Origin: Caldinitratiruptor microaerophilus
Lineage (GTDB): Bacteria > Bacillota > Sulfobacillia > Symbiobacteriales > ZC4RG38
Length of the DNA stretch: 64,000 nucleotides
Reading direction: 5' to 3'
NCBI RefSeq assembly: GCF_025999835.1
Contig: NZ_AP025628.1
Coordinates: forward strand, 2,170,001 to 2,234,000
Below, piece after piece: positions 46,964 through 54,897 of this stretch (its first letter is position 1; each line of letters starts with the position of its first letter). The position numbers and the translations under genes were made by a program. The notes under the pieces are model-generated. The model had not been told where the DNA came from. It made no database searches and saw nothing but the letters and a program-made list of their open reading frames with translations.

Positions 46964-46995
46964 CAGTGACCGGCCCCTCCCGGGGCCGGTCACTG
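46964..46995 (-). terminator. Terminator of the cstA-Get3-like operon
   Basis: Perfect 14-bp stem (CAGTGACCGGCCCC and complement) with loop TCCC, 34 bases after the last stop of the operon on the minus strand. Confidence 0.75.
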
Positions 46996-47029: not shown

Positions 47030-47389
47030 CTAGGCGCTCAGGGCCTGCTCCACGGTACGCCGCACGGCCTCGTAGCCGTCGGCCAGCCGTACGGCGCGGC
47101 CCCGCACGACCACCACGACCTCCCCGGCGCGCAGGCCGTGGCGGAGCGAGAGCCACAATCCCCGCAGGGACGGCAGCCCCACGCTCACCGGGAGGACGCG
47201 CCCGCCGAAGTCGAACAGGAGCCGCTCGTACAGTTCCTGGATCTGCCGCCCCTGCTCGCGCACTTCCGGCGGATAGTCGGCCAGCTGTTCCTGGTCCTCC
47301 GTCATCCCGCACAACCCCACGCTGCGGTGGCACAGGCGGTAATTCTCGGGGAACATCCCCACCAGCTCGACGAGAAGCGGGCGCCCCAC
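47030..47389 (-). CDS. Conserved-looking hypothetical protein, last gene of Get3-like operon
   Basis: 119 residues, GTG 47389 behind GAGGGGGG. It opens with LLVELVGMFPENYRLCHRSV and a second Cys (GLCGMTED), then a helical acidic part and a strand-rich end LRAGEVVVVVRGRAVRLADG. The spacing of strands and the paired Cys loosely recall a thioredoxin-like fold, but I cannot assign a family. It is 13 bases after the preceding gene. A redox or chaperone-adaptor role with the ATPases is only a guess. Confidence 0.65.
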   Translation of the reverse strand: MGRPLLVELVGMFPENYRLCHRSVGLCGMTEDQEQLADYPPEVREQGRQIQELYERLLFDFGGRVLPVSVGLPSLRGLWLSLRHGLRAGEVVVVVRGRAVRLADGYEAVRRTVEQALSA

Positions 47390-47402
47390 CGGAGTTCCCC
47401 CC

Positions 47403-47924
47403 TCAGTGGCACCTCAGCCCCGCTGCCAGGGTGTCCAGCCACGGGCGCAGGTCGGCCTCGCCCTCCAGGAGGAGCTCCACGTGGCGGCCGGTGTGGTTGC
47501 ACACGTAGGACAGGGCCAGCGCCGGCACGAGCCGGCGCGGGAAGCCCCGGCGCACCACGCCGAGGGCCCAGCGGGCCGTGTGGCCGGCCACCTCCACGTC
47601 GCCCGACAGGTCCACCCGGGCCATGGGCCCCGGGGCGGTCGCGCCGGCAGGGGCCGGTTCCGCTCCCGCAGCTCCGGCCGCTCCGCCCTCCCGCACGGGT
47701 CGGAACCGCAGGCTCGCCTCCACGACGCCACCCCGCTCCGGGCCGACGAGGCGGTAGGAGCCGCGCCCCTCGGTGGCCCAGCTCACGTCGCCCCGGAGCC
47801 GCCAGGTGTCCACCTCCGGCGGCGCGATGCCGTCGGCCAGCCGCCACCCTTCCGGGACGGGCAGGACGACCAGGTTGCACGTCCCGAACACCACGCTGCG
47901 GGCGGCCAGGACGTGGGGCCTCAT
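47403..47924 (-). CDS. Hypothetical protein of Get3-like operon
   Basis: 173 residues, starting at an ATG that overlaps the ATPase gene stop by four bases (ATGA). Beta-rich sequence with LAARSVVFGTCNLVVLPVPE, GDVSWATEGRGSYRLVGPE, VDLSGDVEVAGHTARWALGV and YVCNHTGRHVELLLEGEAD. It contains an Ala/Pro linker in the middle. No family recognised. The tight coupling suggests it works with the ATPase pair. Confidence 0.65.
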   Translation of the reverse strand: MRPHVLAARSVVFGTCNLVVLPVPEGWRLADGIAPPEVDTWRLRGDVSWATEGRGSYRLVGPERGGVVEASLRFRPVREGGAAGAAGAEPAPAGATAPGPMARVDLSGDVEVAGHTARWALGVVRRGFPRRLVPALALSYVCNHTGRHVELLLEGEADLRPWLDTLAAGLRCH

Positions 47925-48946
47925 ACCAGCGCCAGCGCCCACTCCTGGTCCGGGTCGAACATGTCCCGGGCCGCCTGGCGCAGGGCGTCCAGACCGTGGA
48001 TCTCCGACTTGTACAGCGGCACGTAGCACCGCACCAGGTCGCCCAGCTGCTCCTGGATGATCCGCAGGTAGTTGGCCTGCTCCCTGAACTTGTTCTGCAG
48101 GTACTCGTCGTCCCGCGCCCGGTCGGCCTCCTCCCGGCTGATGACGCCGTTCACCACGACGCCGCCCACCGGGATGTCGTATGCCGTGACCTGCTTGATG
48201 AAGCGGGTGACCACCGAGATCGGGAGCATGAGCGGCAGCGTGACGAAGAAGAAGGCCGTTTTCTCCGGGTCGATGAGGACCTTCTTCACCCGCTCGAACC
48301 GCTCGTTCATCCCGATGAGGTCGGCCAGCATCGGGTCCTTCTTCACTTCCTCCATGATCTTCTCCTTGCGGAAGCTGAGCTGGACCCGCAGGCTGAGCGC
48401 CTCCTTCCGGCTCTCGATCATCCGCTGCAGCCACAGGCCGTAGATCTTGCTCAGGCCGATCAGCCGGATCGCGTTCGCCACCGCCGCCGTGTCGAAGACG
48501 AGCTTGTCGTACTGCTGGCCCTCCTGGAGCATGATGTCGACCATCTTGTCGAACATGGCCGACTCCTCGAAGGCCGGGTTGGTGACCGCGATGTCGACGA
48601 ACGGCTTGGAGTCGACGGGGATGTCAGCGTACTTCAGGAACTCCCGCACGCGGACGGCGATGTTCTCGCGGTAGCGCGCCACCACGTCCGAGGCGTCGAC
48701 CTCCACGGCGTAGAGGTTCGGGACGCCCTGGACCTGCTTGATCTGGCCACCGGAGAGGTCCTGGCCGAACACCGACGTGAGCGAGTGCACCGGGTTCAAG
48801 GAGGCCAGGAGCGTACGCTTGCCCTCCTGGGCGAACTGGTACGCCAGGGCGGCAGCGCCGATCGTCTTGCCCACGCCGCCCTTGCCACCGGTGAAGATGT
48901 AGCGCAGGTCCGGGTGGGCACGAAGGAAATCGGTGATGTGCTGCAA
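47921..48946 (-). CDS. ArsA/Get3-family ATPase, degenerate partner (BagB-like)
   Basis: 341 residues. The deviant Walker A GGKGGVGKTIG is intact, but the switch I motif reads ASLNPVHSL, with Asn 51 where active Get3/ArsA proteins have the catalytic Asp of STDPxxS. Switch II reads FDTAAVANAIRL instead of the usual FDTxPxGHxLR. ATP binding is likely, hydrolysis doubtful. A helical subdomain (about 125-215) corresponds to the client-binding region of Get3. TTG 48946 follows AGGTG. Paired with the intact ATPase gene upstream, as in the mycobacterial Rv3679-Rv3680 pair. Confidence 0.88.
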   Translation of the reverse strand: MQHITDFLRAHPDLRYIFTGGKGGVGKTIGAAALAYQFAQEGKRTLLASLNPVHSLTSVFGQDLSGGQIKQVQGVPNLYAVEVDASDVVARYRENIAVRVREFLKYADIPVDSKPFVDIAVTNPAFEESAMFDKMVDIMLQEGQQYDKLVFDTAAVANAIRLIGLSKIYGLWLQRMIESRKEALSLRVQLSFRKEKIMEEVKKDPMLADLIGMNERFERVKKVLIDPEKTAFFFVTLPLMLPISVVTRFIKQVTAYDIPVGGVVVNGVISREEADRARDDEYLQNKFREQANYLRIIQEQLGDLVRCYVPLYKSEIHGLDALRQAARDMFDPDQEWALALV

Positions 48947-48968
48947 CTCACCGCACCTACCTTAGCGC

Positions 48969-49979
48969 TCAGTACTCGATCGCAATCTGCGGGGTCATGA
49001 GGTGTTCGGAGGCGGTCGAGATCATCTCCGCTCCCTTGGGCTCCCGGGTGAACATGGGCACGATGGACTTGACCCGGTCGCCGAACTTCCGGGCGATCTC
49101 CCGCAGGTGCTCCTGCTGCATCTCCACCCGGTTGCGCAGGTACTCCGACGTGCCCGGCTTGTCCAGGAGGTCGGCGGGGTACACCTGGTTCACCACCAGG
49201 CCCGACATCTCCATCCCCAGCGAGCCGAACATCTGCAGTGCCCGCTCGGTGTCGAGGATCGCCATCTTCTCCGGGATCAGGACCATGAAGAAGGCGGTCC
49301 GCTTCTTGTCGGTGATCAGGTCGGTGAAGGACTTGATCTTGTTGCGGATGTCGATGAGCTCGTTCATGACTGCGTCCTCGTGGCCCTTCTCACCCTTGAG
49401 GGTCGCGGCGATGGCGTCGTACTCGGCGACCTTGCTGCGCGCTTCGGTGATCTTCTCGACCCACTTCGACAGGATGTCGGCCATCGCGACCATCCGCACG
49501 CCGTGGCCGAACGGCGGCATGTCGAAGATGTAGATGTCGTACTTGTGCGCGGCCACCAGCTCCGCCATGGCGTCGTACGTCGCCGACTCGTACATCGCCG
49601 GCTCTGCCGACGTGGAGTCGATGTACTCCTCGATCTCCTTCGGGACTGCGTCCAGCCCGTACATTTCCTTGATCTTCTTCTTGACGCTTGCCTGGTAGTC
49701 CGCCACCCGGCGGTCGGCGTCGATCTCCACCACGAAGAGGTTGGGGAGGATCTCCACCTCGCCCTTGCCGTAGAAGTCCTGCTCCCAGATGTCGGACAGG
49801 GACGCCTGGGGGTCGGTGCTGAACAGGAGGGTCTTCCGCTTCTTGACCTGGCTCATGTACCAGGCAAGGGACGAGCTCGAGGTGGTCTTGCCCAGCCCGC
49901 CCTTGCCCGCGAAGATCACGATCTCCGCCTCGGGGTGCTGATCGAAGTACTGCTTGAGGCCCTTGGGCTCCAGCCGCAC
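48969..49979 (-). CDS. ArsA/Get3-family ATPase, intact subunit (BagA-like)
   Basis: 336 residues. Walker A AGKGGLGKTT, switch I FSTDPQASLSD with catalytic Asp 56, and switch II FDMPPFGHGVRM are all present. A long helical subdomain around residues 120-215 matches the position of the client groove of Get3. No arsenite-binding Cys triad is visible, so arsenite export is unlikely. GTG 49979 is eight bases after AGGAG; a GTG nine bases upstream is possible. Likely forms a heterodimer with the next gene product to handle membrane or envelope proteins (inference from the mycobacterial pair). Confidence 0.88.
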   Translation of the reverse strand: MRLEPKGLKQYFDQHPEAEIVIFAGKGGLGKTTSSSSLAWYMSQVKKRKTLLFSTDPQASLSDIWEQDFYGKGEVEILPNLFVVEIDADRRVADYQASVKKKIKEMYGLDAVPKEIEEYIDSTSAEPAMYESATYDAMAELVAAHKYDIYIFDMPPFGHGVRMVAMADILSKWVEKITEARSKVAEYDAIAATLKGEKGHEDAVMNELIDIRNKIKSFTDLITDKKRTAFFMVLIPEKMAILDTERALQMFGSLGMEMSGLVVNQVYPADLLDKPGTSEYLRNRVEMQQEHLREIARKFGDRVKSIVPMFTREPKGAEMISTASEHLMTPQIAIEY

Positions 49980-50000
49980 CGCTGTCACTCCTCGTGCAGA

Positions 50001-50291
50001 TCAGTAGATGGCGTCGGTGAAGTCCCGCTCGCGGAACACCCGCTGCTTCCACGACTCGATGTTGGGGACGGCGTAGGGCAGGATCCGCAGGCTGTAGTAG
50101 GGCGGCAGCACCGGGATGCCCAGCATGTCCCCGAGCGTGATGAACATGAACAGGTGTTCGAGATGCATCCGGGTGCGCAGGGCTGCCGTGACGTTTCCGT
50201 GCGACGCCATCCCGTACAGGACGCCCTTCAGGATGGTGCCGAGTCCGGCCTTCTTCTCGCCTTCGCCGCCGTTCTTCTTCTTGCTGAACAA
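50001..50291 (-). CDS. 96-residue hypothetical protein between cstA and the ATPases
   Basis: TTG 50291 behind GAGGTGG. A basic, Lys/Gly-rich start (FSKKKNGGEGEKKAG) is followed by a helical core ILKGVLYGMASHGNVTAALR, RMHLEHLFMFITLGDMLGI, and PVLPPYYSLRILPYAVPNI, ending in WKQRVFRERDF. The hydrophobic run MFITLGDMLGIPVLPPYY is moderate, so it may be membrane-associated. I do not recognise the family. It ends 22 bases before the first ATPase gene. Confidence 0.7.
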   Translation of the reverse strand: MFSKKKNGGEGEKKAGLGTILKGVLYGMASHGNVTAALRTRMHLEHLFMFITLGDMLGIPVLPPYYSLRILPYAVPNIESWKQRVFRERDFTDAIY

Positions 50292-50331
50292 GGGGACCAC
50301 CTCGATCTCTTGCGAAGATGGCTTGGCGGAA

Positions 50332-50368
50332 CTCCGGCCGGCCTGGCGGGAGGCCAGGCCGGCCGGAG
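50332..50368 (-). terminator. Strong hairpin between cstA and the downstream genes
   Basis: A perfect 16-bp GC-rich stem (CTCCGGCCGGCCTGGC and complement) with loop GGGAG, 31 bases after the cstA stop and 41 bases before the next start. No T-run follows. With so little room for a promoter, it is more likely an attenuating or RNA-stabilising element than a full terminator. Confidence 0.6.
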
Positions 50369-50398
50369 ACCCGCAGGATCGCTTGGATCCGATCGGGA

Positions 50399-52123
50399 TC
50401 AGTCGTCCCCGCTGACCGTGGTGGGCTGGGGCATGGCGCCGCTGACCGCCCGGCCATACGCCTGGTAGGTGAGGACTGCCATGCGAATCCCCAGGACGAA
50501 CAGTGCCAGGCCGATGAGCACCGACACCCAGTCGAGCGCGTTCGCCACCGCCGGGGCCGCGCTCTTGAGCGGCTCCATCACCTTGGTCGCCTTGGGGCCG
50601 GCCATGGCCGCCTGCAGGAACACCCACGTCTGGAACAGCAGCGCGGACAGCGTGGTGACGATCATGAACGTGGCCGGGATGAGCGTGTAGATGCTCGGGG
50701 ACTTCACCCGGGCCAGGTGGATGGTGATGAGCATGAGCGCCAGGCCGGCCAGGAGCTGGTTGGAGCCGCCGAAGTACAGCCAGATGTTGTTCCACGTGCC
50801 GCTCACGGCCAGGACCCACGGGATCAGCAGGCCGATGAACGTCGACACGTGCTTCTGCGCCAGCGGCGACTGGCCGAACACCTCGGCGGATACCAGCCGC
50901 CAGAACCGGGTGACCAGGGCCTGCACCGTGATGGCGTAAATCACCAGCACGGTGCCGTAGAACACCCGCAGTGCCGCATCACTGAACGGCAGCCACTTCG
51001 TGAGCAGCGTGGCCCCGAAGACCCAGGCGCCGACGCTCGAATTCTTGAGGTCGGCGATCTGCTGGGGGCTCAGTACCATGTAGGCCGCCAGGGAGGCCAG
51101 CGCCAGCAGGCCCTCCGATAGCATGGCGCCGGCGCCCACCGGGTGCGCGTCCGTCTCGATGTCCAGCTGCTTGGAGGTCGAGGACGAGCCCACCAGGCTG
51201 TGCCAGCCCGAGATGGAGCCGCAGGCGATGGCCACGAACATCATCGGCCACATGGGACCGGCCGGGCTGGTGAAGCCCTTCCACGCCGGCTGGGCGAGCG
51301 TGACGCCCGTCGCCGGGCTCAGGAGCGCCCCCAGGAGGATGAAGATGACCGCCAGGAACGCCGGGAAGAAGGAGACGTAGTTGAACGGCTGGATGAAGGT
51401 CGGCAGCGGCAGCACCGAGGCAACCCAGAGGATGGCCGCTACGATCAGGGCCCAGGTCGCGTGGTTCCACGCACCGAAGGGCAGCTTCCACTGGAAGGCC
51501 GGTATGGTGCCGAGCCAGAAGCTGATGATCATCAGCACGAAGGCGATGAGCGTCGTGGCCCCGACGCCCATCTTCACCTTGTACATCAGCTGGCCCACGA
51601 CGACGCCCGTGACGATGATGCCCAGGGTGGCGAAGAAGGAGCCGGGGAAGATGTTCCAGAACGTGGCGATCAGCTGGATGAACGTGGCCGAGATGATCAC
51701 CAGGTAGAACAGGATGAACCCCAGAAGAGTGCTGCGCCCGCCCGCACCGGTGAACTCGTAGGTGATCGGGCCGAAGGAGCGCCCCTGGTTGCGGATGGAC
51801 ACCATGATGGCCCCGTAGTCCTGGAGCCAGCCGATGAAGAAGTTGCCCAGGATGATCCAGGCCAGAGCCGGCGCCCAACCGTAGTTCAACGCGATGAAAG
51901 GCCCGAGGATGGGCCCGAGGGCGGCCACGCTCTTGTACTGGTAGCCCCAGAGCACGTACTTGCTGACGGGGAAGTACTCGACGCCGTCGGTGTACATGTG
52001 GGCCGGCGTCGTGCGGTTCGGATCCGGCTTCCACACGGTCCGGTCGTACCACTTGCCGTAACCCCAGAAGGCGATGCCGTACGCGATGAGAGCCAGGAGG
52101 ACGAACCAGAAGGGCGTGCTCAC
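50399..52123 (-). CDS. cstA: CstA family carbon-starvation transporter
   Basis: 574 residues with about 16 membrane helices. Family landmarks are VLWGYQYKSVAALGPILGPF, WGYGKWYDRTVWKPD, IACGSISGWHSLVGSSSTSK (the CstA signature), and GTWNNIWLYFGGSNQLLAGL. CstA-type proteins import pyruvate or peptides when carbon is scarce. GTG 52123 has GGGGG seven bases upstream. First gene of a minus-strand unit that continues, past a hairpin, into the Get3-like ATPase genes. Confidence 0.95.
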   Translation of the reverse strand: MSTPFWFVLLALIAYGIAFWGYGKWYDRTVWKPDPNRTTPAHMYTDGVEYFPVSKYVLWGYQYKSVAALGPILGPFIALNYGWAPALAWIILGNFFIGWLQDYGAIMVSIRNQGRSFGPITYEFTGAGGRSTLLGFILFYLVIISATFIQLIATFWNIFPGSFFATLGIIVTGVVVGQLMYKVKMGVGATTLIAFVLMIISFWLGTIPAFQWKLPFGAWNHATWALIVAAILWVASVLPLPTFIQPFNYVSFFPAFLAVIFILLGALLSPATGVTLAQPAWKGFTSPAGPMWPMMFVAIACGSISGWHSLVGSSSTSKQLDIETDAHPVGAGAMLSEGLLALASLAAYMVLSPQQIADLKNSSVGAWVFGATLLTKWLPFSDAALRVFYGTVLVIYAITVQALVTRFWRLVSAEVFGQSPLAQKHVSTFIGLLIPWVLAVSGTWNNIWLYFGGSNQLLAGLALMLITIHLARVKSPSIYTLIPATFMIVTTLSALLFQTWVFLQAAMAGPKATKVMEPLKSAAPAVANALDWVSVLIGLALFVLGIRMAVLTYQAYGRAVSGAMPQPTTVSGDD

Positions 52124-52385: not shown

Positions 52386-52610
52386 TCAGGCCCCGCCCTC
52401 CGCCCGGCGCAGGATGGCCACCTCGGCCCCGTCCTCCAGCGGGCGGTCCGGGGGGACATAGCGGCCGTTCACGAGCAGGGCCAGGTCGGGTTCCTTGAGC
52501 CCGAGGCGCTCCAGCAGGCCGGCGGGGGTGGTGCCGTCGGGCACGTCCTCCTCCCCTCGCCAGATCCGCTCCCCGCGGAAGGGCAGGTACACCTCCAGGC
52601 GAATGCGCAC
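52386..52610 (-). CDS. MoaD/ThiS-like ubiquitin-fold protein ending Gly-Gly-Ala
   Basis: 74 residues with a beta-grasp pattern: IRLEVYLPFRGE, LLERLGLKEPDLALLVNGRYVPPD, LEDGAEVAILRRAEGGA. MoaD/ThiS proteins normally end in Gly-Gly, whose carboxylate is adenylated and thiocarboxylated; here an extra Ala follows. GTG 52610 directly abuts the stop of the aldehyde oxidoreductase gene, so it is probably the dedicated sulfur carrier for the tungsten/molybdenum cofactor of that enzyme. The MoeB-rhodanese protein at 61.5-62.7 kb could activate it. Confidence 0.8.
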   Translation of the reverse strand: MRIRLEVYLPFRGERIWRGEEDVPDGTTPAGLLERLGLKEPDLALLVNGRYVPPDRPLEDGAEVAILRRAEGGA

Positions 52611-54314
52611 CTAGTAGCCCTCCCAGATGCGGTCGAGCTCTTCCTCCGGCACGTCGAACACCGCGCCGTGCGGCGGCAGCGGCTCCGTGCGCAGCCACTC
52701 CGGCAGCCGGTCCGTCTCCGGACCGAGCCCCGCCCGGCGGTTGAACTCGATCTCTTCCTTTATCACGTCTACGGCGTAGCGCCGGATCTCTTCGGGGGTG
52801 AAGTTCGTCCCCATCCGGGCGTTGAACAGGTCAGCGAAGGTCTGCGGGGTCGCACTCATGACGCCCCGGGCGAAGTTGCAGAAGCCCAGCACGTCGAGCG
52901 CCGTGGCGACGATCTGCATCTCCCGGGACACGGCCACCTTGTCGGAGGGGTCGAGGTGGTCGATGGGAAGGGCGATGGTGTTCCCGCACGTGTGGTCGGC
53001 CCCCATGGGGCTCGTCGCGTAGGTCACGCCGTTGCCCTTCACGGCCCGGGGGTCGTACGCGGAGATCGTCTGGTTCTTCACGACCGGCACCCGCTGCACG
53101 CCCAGGACCTTGCCGGCGATGCCGGCACCCGCTCCCAGCACCCGGCCGAGCACGGTGCCCGCCCGGATCTCCCCCATCAGGCGCATGACGCCCTCCGCGT
53201 CGCCCCACCGGATGACACCCGCTTCCATCGCCACGCCCATGGCGCCTCCGGTCTCGATGGTGTCCACCCCGAGGTCGTTGCACTCGCGGGTGAAGCGGGC
53301 GATCCAGTCGACGTCGAAGATCTCCAGGTTGGAGCCCAGGAGGCCGTGGGTCTCGAACTCCATCGAGGAGGCGACCTCCTGGCCCTCCTTGTCGACGAAC
53401 ACGTTCGAGCACTGGATGATGCAGCCGGTCATGCACGAGTGCGTGGTCTGGCCGCCCCGCTCCAGGATGATCTCCCGCACCCGGATCCCGCCGATCTCCA
53501 GCGCCCGCTCGTCCTGCCCCCAGCGGAAGTTGTGGACCGGCAGCCCGCCGACCTTGTTCACCAGCTCCAGCACGCCCAGGGTGCCGAGCTTGGGGTACCG
53601 CTCGGCCGTGGCGGGCTGCGTGCGCAGTTCCTGGACGTACGCCTTGCTGGCCGCCTTCCAGACGGCCTCGTCCAGGCTCCTCGGCGGGTTCCACCCCACG
53701 TCCTCGTAGACGATCGCCTTGAGCCCCTTCGACCCCATCACGGCACCGAGGCCGCCCCGCGCGCACATCCGGCCGGGCCGGCCCTCCGGGTCGGTGTTGC
53801 CGATCCCGGCGATGTTCATCTTCATCTCGCCCGCCGGCCCGATGACCGAGAGCCCCACCTTGCGGCCGAACCGCTCGAAGAGCCGCCGCGCCGTCTCGTA
53901 CTGCCCGAGCCCGGCCAGGTCGTCCGCGCGCTCGAACCGGACCGACTCCGGCCCGATCACCAGGAGCCACCAGCCCGGCTCGCGCGGTTGACCCTCGATG
54001 ATCACCGCGCGGTAGCCGAGCTGGGCCAGCTTCAGCCCGCTCTGGCCACCGCCGTTCGACTCCTTGATCCCCCCGGTGAGCGGACTCTTGGCCCCCGCGG
54101 AGATGCGGCTGGAACTGCTGAGGGTGGTCCCGGACAGGAGGCCGGGCGCCAGCACCAGCTTGTTGTTCGGGCCGAGGGGGTCGCAGAGCGGGTCCACTTC
54201 CGTCGCGACGATGCGGCTCGTGATCGCACGGCCGCCCAGGAGGCGCCACGCCTCCGGCAGCGGCTCGATGCGGTAGCTCCGGTCCGTCATGTTCACGCGC
54301 AGGATTCGCTCCAC
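52611..54314 (-). CDS. Tungsten-type aldehyde:ferredoxin oxidoreductase
   Basis: 567 residues, AOR family. N-terminal pterin domain with SSSSRISAGAKSPLTGGIKE, SNGGGQSGLKLAQLGYRAVI, GNTDPEGRPGRMCARGGLGA and MGSKGLKAIV. The Fe-S cysteines are TTHSCMTGCIIQC and a distant Cys in VLGFCNFARG. Oxidises aldehydes to acids with ferredoxin, or the reverse. GTG 54314 follows GAGGAGG. No signal peptide: cytoplasmic. The aldehyde is unknown; partner MoaD gene follows without a gap. Confidence 0.9.
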   Translation of the reverse strand: MERILRVNMTDRSYRIEPLPEAWRLLGGRAITSRIVATEVDPLCDPLGPNNKLVLAPGLLSGTTLSSSSRISAGAKSPLTGGIKESNGGGQSGLKLAQLGYRAVIIEGQPREPGWWLLVIGPESVRFERADDLAGLGQYETARRLFERFGRKVGLSVIGPAGEMKMNIAGIGNTDPEGRPGRMCARGGLGAVMGSKGLKAIVYEDVGWNPPRSLDEAVWKAASKAYVQELRTQPATAERYPKLGTLGVLELVNKVGGLPVHNFRWGQDERALEIGGIRVREIILERGGQTTHSCMTGCIIQCSNVFVDKEGQEVASSMEFETHGLLGSNLEIFDVDWIARFTRECNDLGVDTIETGGAMGVAMEAGVIRWGDAEGVMRLMGEIRAGTVLGRVLGAGAGIAGKVLGVQRVPVVKNQTISAYDPRAVKGNGVTYATSPMGADHTCGNTIALPIDHLDPSDKVAVSREMQIVATALDVLGFCNFARGVMSATPQTFADLFNARMGTNFTPEEIRRYAVDVIKEEIEFNRRAGLGPETDRLPEWLRTEPLPPHGAVFDVPEEELDRIWEGY

Positions 54315-54400
54315 AGCCTGCAGGCCTCCTCTCCCTTTCTTGTGGAACGATTCGAGGTAGAGGCGCCGTCCCCTTCTCCGACCGGCGCGCCCGGATGTGG

Positions 54401-54406
54401 TACAAT
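54401..54406 (+). promoter_or_regulatory. Possible -10 box
   Basis: TACAAT at 54401-54406, 36 bases before the preferred start of the PNPOx-like gene. The -35 is not evident. Confidence 0.3.
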
Positions 54407-54441
54407 CGCCTCGGTATCGCATTGGAAGGGAGGGCGGACCG

Positions 54442-54897
54442 CTGGCGAAGGAGGCCCTGAGCGAGATGCCACAGGAGCTCGTCGGGTTCCTGCAGGAGCC
54501 CCGCATCACGGTGCTCACCACGCTCGACGGCGAGGGCTCCCCGTTCGTCAACGTGATCTCCTGGGTGCTGGCGAAGGACGCCCGGACCCTGCGGCTGATG
54601 GGCGACGGCCGGACCCAGTTCCTCAAGAATATCCGCAACGACCCGCGGGTCGCCGTGACCGTCCTGGGCGCCGGCACGGCGTGGACGATCTACGGGCGGG
54701 CGACCGTCCTGGCCGACAAGACTCCCGGCGTCCCCCTGAACCTCTGCCTGGTGGAGGTCACCGATCTGCGGGTGTACGAGGCGTTGTTCTGGGGGGCCAG
54801 GCTCACCCGGCCCCCCGAGTGGGACGTGACCTATTCCCCGGAACAGGCGCACAGGCTGGACGTGCAGGTCTTCGAGGCGATGCGGTCGTTCCGTTGA
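54442..54897 (+). CDS. Pyridoxamine 5'-phosphate oxidase family protein
   Basis: About 151 residues, split-barrel flavin-binding fold: LVGFLQEPRITVLTTLDGEG, PFVNVISWVLAKDARTLRLM, TQFLKNIRNDPRVAVTVLGA, AWTIYGRATVLAD. Small members bind FMN, F420 or heme, so the cofactor is open. GGGAGGG sits seven bases before CTG 54442; ATG 54466 has AAGGAGG twelve bases upstream and is the safer canonical start. Divergent from the aldehyde oxidoreductase gene. Confidence 0.8.
   Translation: MAKEALSEMPQELVGFLQEPRITVLTTLDGEGSPFVNVISWVLAKDARTLRLMGDGRTQFLKNIRNDPRVAVTVLGAGTAWTIYGRATVLADKTPGVPLNLCLVEVTDLRVYEALFWGARLTRPPEWDVTYSPEQAHRLDVQVFEAMRSFR

Follow-up and report, generated by a model that had tools for sequence, protein, structure and literature searches.

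The window analysed in this study is a stretch of 64,000 nucleotides from Caldinitratiruptor microaerophilus (contig NZ_AP025628.1, positions 2,170,001 to 2,234,000), a bacterium whose genome is a single 3.6-Mb contig and which has Symbiobacterium among its nearest relatives. On the minus strand of the window, between positions 47030 and 52123, six genes follow one another in the order cstA, cstX, A1, A2, and two genes for proteins of 173 and 119 residues, all of them as uninterrupted open reading frames (ORFs). The gene list was based on the ORFs and translations of the 64-kb window, followed by profile searches; the ORFs bear out the six-gene set, strand, order and 4-base overlap that a first-pass annotation had described. 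According to the coordinates, successive genes are separated by 107, 12 and 22 bp, overlap by 4 bp (A2 and the 173-residue gene) and are again separated by 13 bp.

The first gene, cstA (50399–52123, GTG start), encodes a CstA-family transporter of 574 residues (Pfam CstA, PF02554, E = 4e-97), which is the only CstA of this genome; YbdD is absent from the genome. The product of cstX (50001–50291, TTG start) has 96 residues and belongs to the cory-CC-star family in a broad sense. The two following genes, A1 (48969–49988, 339 residues) and A2 (47921–48946, 341 residues, TTG start), encode Get3/ArsA-like ATPases, and the last two (47403–47924 and 47030–47389) encode the 173-residue protein, a beta protein, and the 119-residue protein, respectively.

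A known linkage and its distribution

The linkage of cstA to such ATPases had not been recognised as known in the first-pass annotation, but was published in 2010, for the same bacterial family, by Castillo and Saier, who described CstA-CstX-ArsA carbon-starvation operons by computer analysis (PMC2963123). According to the accessible part of that paper, 26 cases of CstA together with an ArsA homologue were found, 24 of them with a CstX of about 90 residues, and the three proteins were reported to have co-evolved. An adjacent ATPase pair of S. thermophilum (345 and 339 residues, 25% identical) was placed in cluster 15 together with Pyrobaculum pairs. The ArsA homologues were proposed to energise CstA, with CstX serving as a linker. 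The window operon belongs with these operons by its CstA, its 96-residue CstX and its ATPases of 339 and 341 residues; CstA, a CstX of about 90 residues, single-domain ArsA homologues of about 330 residues and the lack of ars genes are shared with the operons of 2010, as far as the accessible text describes them. Neither arsR nor any other ars gene was recognised, the six genes being judged by profile search and their neighbours from translations only, which agrees with the earlier statement that arsenic genes are absent. The name CstX is assigned to the 96-residue protein by position, size and occurrence in the same organisms, not by comparison with the sequences of 2010.

In the same accessible text, homodimers were suggested, the Asp of the SXD motif was noted only as possibly Asn, a strict division into A1 and A2 and the 173- and 119-residue families were not described, and CstY was known from archaea only. 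In the later open-licence literature, nothing relevant on CstA-linked ArsA homologues was found. The linkage to cstA had thus been published as a prediction; the additions of the current study are the strict pairing of a presumably live with a presumably dead ATPase, the predicted folds of the two accessory families and the bacterial CstY.

A CstX profile search of genome contigs yielded 449 relatives. The best 80 of the 449, which are 52–96% identical to the window protein, come from Bacillota, Chloroflexota, Acidobacteria, Deltaproteobacteria and others, as well as many archaea. Forty-five loci had at least 3.5 kb on each side; they were ranked by similarity to the window CstX, so that their counts describe that branch. 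CstA, CstX, A1 and A2 stood together in 44 of the 45, in bacteria and archaea; A1 and A2 were found in 45, CstA in 44, CstY in 29, a second CstX and the 119-residue family in 28 each, and the 173-residue family in 19. A less biased sample was provided by 299 evenly drawn Bacillota genomes. CstX was present in 18 of these, and CstA occurred somewhere in all 18, versus 139 of the 299 overall (p about 5e-7, ignoring shared ancestry, as species are not independent). In this sample CstX adjoins one or two ATPases wherever the contig shows it, extra CstX copies excepted. The 173-residue family was found in five of the 299 genomes, always inside the operon, and the 119-residue family in the same five, with one additional marginal match carrying an internal stop. 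No CstX was found on plasmids. The accessible text of 2010 states that CstX is never found in an operon lacking cstA; this is contradicted by several Bacillota that have CstX with one ATPase and cstA elsewhere. In one Bacillota family, a CstX with a Cys-Cys end accompanies one intact ATPase and cstA is absent from the vicinity; a Cys-rich ORF precedes this CstX in two cases.

Accidental linkage of genes with unrelated roles might be suspected from the gene order in some archaea, where CstA follows A2 or is divergent, and from the displacement of a CstX-CstY pair in the present genome. This explanation is extremely improbable against the tight order seen across two domains of life and the near absence of the 173- and 119-residue families from anywhere else in Bacillota. 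Because distantly related bacteria and archaea share its order, the gene array is not a chance arrangement, and the six genes form a real operon. The neighbourhood comparison thereby bears out a Get3-like pair conserved together with cstA and the small proteins, all three of which have homologues next to the same ATPase pair elsewhere, as the first-pass annotation had proposed to check.

The unequal ATPase pair

Both ATPases exceed the cut-off of 135 bits of the TRC40/GET3/ArsA subfamily model TIGR00345, with 221.6 bits for A1 and 209.1 bits for A2, and for each of them an archaeal Get3 structure is the best or second-best match in the PDB. The catalytic motifs were surveyed in 42 non-redundant A1 proteins, 42 non-redundant A2 proteins and 8 single ATPases. 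The switch-I residue is Asp in all 42 A1 proteins, Asn in all 42 A2 proteins and Asp in all 8 single ATPases. In switch II of A2, Gly is replaced by Ala in 42/42 and His by Asn in 37/42, and the residue following the P-loop Thr is Val, Ile or Ala. Every A1, A2 and single ATPase retains its P-loop lysines, among them the lysine that in Get3 extends to the other half of the dimer. The window proteins follow this pattern: A1, earlier called intact, has all of the P-loop, switch I and switch II motifs, and A2, earlier called degenerate, retains the P-loop lysines and reads SLNP in switch I (N for the catalytic D) and DTAAVANA versus DTAPTGHT in switch II. The same Asp-to-Asn change has been reported to leave TRC40/Get3 deficient in ATPase activity (PMC6633398). 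Two deposited ArsA chains are distinguished by just this motif, with STDP in 9nbl and STNP in 9nbo.

In a phylogenetic tree, A1 forms one clade (support of 98 in the Shimodaira–Hasegawa-like approximate likelihood ratio test, SH-aLRT) and A2 another (99), each including bacteria and archaea, and the single ATPases stand apart; the tree was built by a quick method and has long branches near its root. Because the bacterial and archaeal members of each subunit fall into one clade, the split probably has a single origin, presumably one duplication leading to an asymmetric pair, and has been kept since. The motif pattern fits an obligate heterodimer in which A2 would bind but not hydrolyse ATP. The single-ATPase modules keep every catalytic residue (8/8), and this full set fits what a homodimer would need. 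A third ArsA/Get3 homologue is encoded elsewhere in the genome (440445–441344, in a 409-residue frame).

That the ATPases could be subunits of an arsenite pump is suggested by their match to the Pfam family ArsA_ATPase (PF02374). The ArsA model TIGR04291, however, gives only 91.8 and 110.4 bits versus a cut-off of 650, the metal-binding cysteines of ArsA are missing, and the ORFs on either side include no recognisable ars gene. In the accessible literature, single-domain ArsA homologues generally lack these cysteines. The arsenite-pump explanation was rejected on the model scores and the missing cysteines, leaving it a negligible probability, and the first-pass annotation was right to regard the ATPases as something else. 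Its comparison with the mycobacterial pair Rv3679-Rv3680 (BagA-BagB) did not survive, since the window proteins score 29–50 bits against the two models of that pair (at most 50 bits versus 400 for NF053622 and at most 37 bits versus 521 for NF053621). BagA-BagB likewise consists of two adjacent Get3-like ATPases, but it is a different pair in a different genomic context.

The similarity to Get3/TRC40, which includes both the subfamily model and the fold, raises the possibility of membrane-protein targeting, in which a Get3-like A1-A2 pair would shield and deliver the hydrophobic segments of CstX, and perhaps of CstY and CstA. The window system differs from Get3 in its two unequal subunits, in the lack of CXXC and in its operon with CstA. 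The hydrophobic fraction of the client-binding insert is low in A1 (0.19) and 0.32 in A2, compared with 0.42 in two archaeal Get3 proteins, which would speak against targeting, although this argument is weak, as fungal Get3 was estimated by eye at about 0.28. CXXC is absent from every A1 and A2 scanned, which is not decisive, as plant Get3a also lacks it. Cysteines are almost absent across the A1 and A2 proteins, and the window proteins contain none (A1) and one (A2). Furthermore, a system serving one transporter needs no general targeting factor.

Small proteins and surroundings of the operon

The window CstX matches the cory-CC-star model NF041419 with 32.1 bits (E = 8e-8), below the cut-off of 80, and a relative from other Bacillota, encoded next to CstA and one ATPase, reaches 125.8 bits. 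By these scores, the window CstX is a distant relative of the cory-CC-star family. It ends in DAIY and not in Cys-Cys, in contrast to the single-ATPase relatives, which end in CC. A divergent YbdD/YjiX protein (PF04328) was also considered for CstX and rejected (hhalign probability 0.6%, no Pfam match). A second CstX with a His-rich tail, followed by CstY, is located at about 2102781–2103591 of the genome contig (2.10 Mb), away from the operon, and in four relatives the corresponding two genes adjoin it. CstY, described from archaea, occurs in bacteria too; the name is assigned by size, a single clear N-terminal membrane segment and context, not by sequence comparison with the 2010 set.

The hydrophobic segments of these proteins bear on targeting from both sides. 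CstY offers its N-terminal membrane segment, and in CstX a stretch of moderate hydrophobicity, borderline as a membrane segment (mean peak 1.49), lies some 20 residues before the C terminus.

The 119- and 173-residue window proteins matched no family in the profile searches. The 173-residue family has eight residues invariant in 23/23 aligned members (G14, P24, G53, H115, C142, R147, C172 and H173), and 34 of 38 family matches carry Cys-His among their final six residues. The AlphaFold2 model of the window protein (predicted local distance difference test, pLDDT, 89.7; predicted template modelling score, pTM, 0.85) gave many Foldseek matches to the Mog1/PsbP/LpqN/EagR fold, with probabilities of 0.9–1.00, E about 2e-3 and template modelling (TM) scores of about 0.5, the best being 3lyd, PsbP (2vu4), EagT6 (6xrf) and SciW (6xrb). 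A Mog1/PsbP/EagR-type fold is tentatively predicted; no sequence match to EagR, PsbP or Mog1 was found, and the family has a conserved Cys/His set of its own. EagR chaperones hold the transmembrane helices of effectors (PMC7773334), and the 173-residue protein would act as an EagR-like co-chaperone if A1-A2 were a targeting system. Taking this fold together with the ATPase and CstX data, we regard targeting as rather unlikely.

The 119-residue family aligns across bacteria and archaea. The model of the window protein (pLDDT 88, pTM 0.80) had thioredoxin as its top PDB match in Foldseek (probability 1.00, E only 4.6e-3, TM score about 0.5), and Thioredoxin_3 was matched by 4 of 25 family members; on the basis of the model, the protein is assigned a thioredoxin fold. 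Of 49 members, 15 contain HCxHC and 8 contain CxxC, and the window copy has single cysteines.

These conserved residues point to another explanation, in which a SIMIBI ATPase pair, together with the thioredoxin-fold and Cys/His proteins, would load a metal or repair a thiol on CstX or CstA, in the manner of metallochaperone nucleoside triphosphatases (NTPases). The invariant H115, C142, R147, C172 and H173 and the C-terminal CH of the 173-residue family, as well as the cysteine motifs of the 119-residue family, are consistent with it, as are the Cys-Cys ends of CstX in single-ATPase systems and of YbdD/YjiX in E. coli. In E. coli, moreover, the gene immediately after yjiX is yjiA, which encodes a GTPase from the COG0523 group of putative metal chaperones (PMC2770081), and the arrangement CstA-DUF466-GTPase is found in Rahnella. 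On the other hand, the window 119-residue protein has lost the CxxC of its relatives, the window CstX has no CC tail, and A1 and A2 are almost free of cysteine. Such cofactor or redox loading is, on balance, rather unlikely.

The non-coding sequences of the operon contain two hairpins, both on the minus strand. Downstream of the last gene, a perfect 14-bp inverted repeat with a 4-nt loop (46964–46995; RNA fold z = -4.4) agrees with the hairpin reported earlier; its function as a terminator is only plausible, as a proper T run is absent and the terminator scan did not call it. A simple scan for sigma-70 promoters and terminators made no calls. A stronger hairpin, absent from the first-pass annotation, near-perfect over 22 bp and detected by repeat search and RNA folding, occupies positions 50326–50374 in the cstA-cstX gap, which folds with -64 kcal/mol (z = -5.9). 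It could act as an attenuator, with the ATPase genes then expressed less than cstA. The only Rfam match, a microRNA on this hairpin far under the cut-off, was dismissed as spurious. A 406-bp segment (50019–50424), which runs from the end of cstA across the 22-bp hairpin into cstX and includes most of the latter, has a second copy at a distance of 65 kb, with 85% identity (about 2285372–2285776 of the genome contig); no ATPases accompany the duplicate, in which the cstX copy ends early (FRERDIF). The second genome copy of the hairpin stands only beside this duplicated cstX.

Upstream of cstA, on the same strand (52386–54677), lie a ThiS/MoaD-like gene and an aldehyde ferredoxin oxidoreductase gene, with a hairpin between them and cstA. 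Similar oxidoreductases occur near the module in some relatives; the enzyme was left out of the system, as it was nearby in only 4 of the loci examined.

Proposed coupling of the ATPase pair to CstA

Given the observed linkage and co-occurrence, the loss of motifs in A2 and the single origin of A1 and of A2, together with the predicted folds, we infer that A1 and A2 form a heterodimer that docks through CstX and is coupled to transport, with accessory roles for the two small proteins. CstA would be the membrane transporter; A1 would hydrolyse ATP and A2 only bind it; CstX, encoded directly after cstA, would link the dimer to CstA; and the binding and hydrolysis of ATP would gate or drive CstA, as ArsA does with ArsB. 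The thioredoxin-fold and Cys/His beta proteins would be accessories, probably tuning the system by redox state or a bound metal. By analogy with E. coli CstA, the substrate is probably pyruvate or a peptide. We assign a probability of roughly 45% to the proposal that the asymmetric ATPase acts by way of CstX to gate or energise CstA.

An action of A1-A2 on CstA is the best supported of the explanations, because CstA is the constant partner, ArsA-ArsB is the nearest precedent and ars genes are absent. ArsA acting on ArsB is the closest case of an NTPase serving a secondary transporter, and it belongs to the same ATPase fold family as A1 and A2. ArsD is thioredoxin-like, so that the ArsA-ArsB-ArsD pump, like the window system, combines an ArsA-fold ATPase, a secondary transporter and a thioredoxin-fold partner. 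The window system differs in having neither the metal-binding cysteines nor ArsB, ArsD or ArsR, and in having two half-size ATPases, one with a site predicted to be dead. The first-pass annotation had favoured membrane- or envelope-protein handling, which is possible, as the 173-residue protein has the predicted fold of chaperones that shield transmembrane helices; transport coupling is likelier because the constant partner is the transporter CstA. Its further suggestion, that the operon is switched on by carbon limitation, is unsupported in this analysis.

Several points weigh against the coupling of A1-A2 to CstA. E. coli CstA works without an ArsA homologue in its operon. Several CstX-ATPase pairs of Bacillota do not adjoin cstA, though the genome has it, and simple energisation leaves the extra proteins unexplained. 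In the open-licence literature, no transport, binding or ATPase data were found for any such system.

The arrangement also resembles transporter systems of E. coli, in which pyruvate uptake by CstA depends on YbdD, a small protein whose gene comes directly after cstA (PMC5847655). CstX holds the place of YbdD after cstA, with no homology detected by profile comparison. BtsT-YjiX-YjiA likewise comprises a transporter, a small protein and a P-loop NTPase, the latter being a GTPase of another family. No GTPase gene directly follows the small-protein gene in Pseudomonas, Xanthomonas and Paraburkholderia. The analogy is suggestive of a recurring scheme of a transporter, a small partner and a P-loop NTPase.

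A bolder version of the coupling proposal, which we consider doubtful, is that these operons encode an ATP-assisted importer family of its own in archaea and bacteria, in which an obligate heterodimer of a live and a dead Get3/ArsA subunit drives or gates CstA, and the thioredoxin-fold and Cys/His proteins provide redox or metal control. We know of no ArsA/Get3-family ATPase that has been shown to power an importer.

The role of the CstA-linked ATPases is now open to testing. The division into a live and a dead subunit offers a clean handle, as one residue predicts the ATP-hydrolysing subunit, and for two unnamed families, of 173 and 119 residues, a fold can now be predicted and the conserved residues and constant partners are defined. 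If true, the coupling of A1-A2 to CstA would give SIMIBI ATPases a part in the carbon uptake of many archaea and bacteria that have not been cultured.

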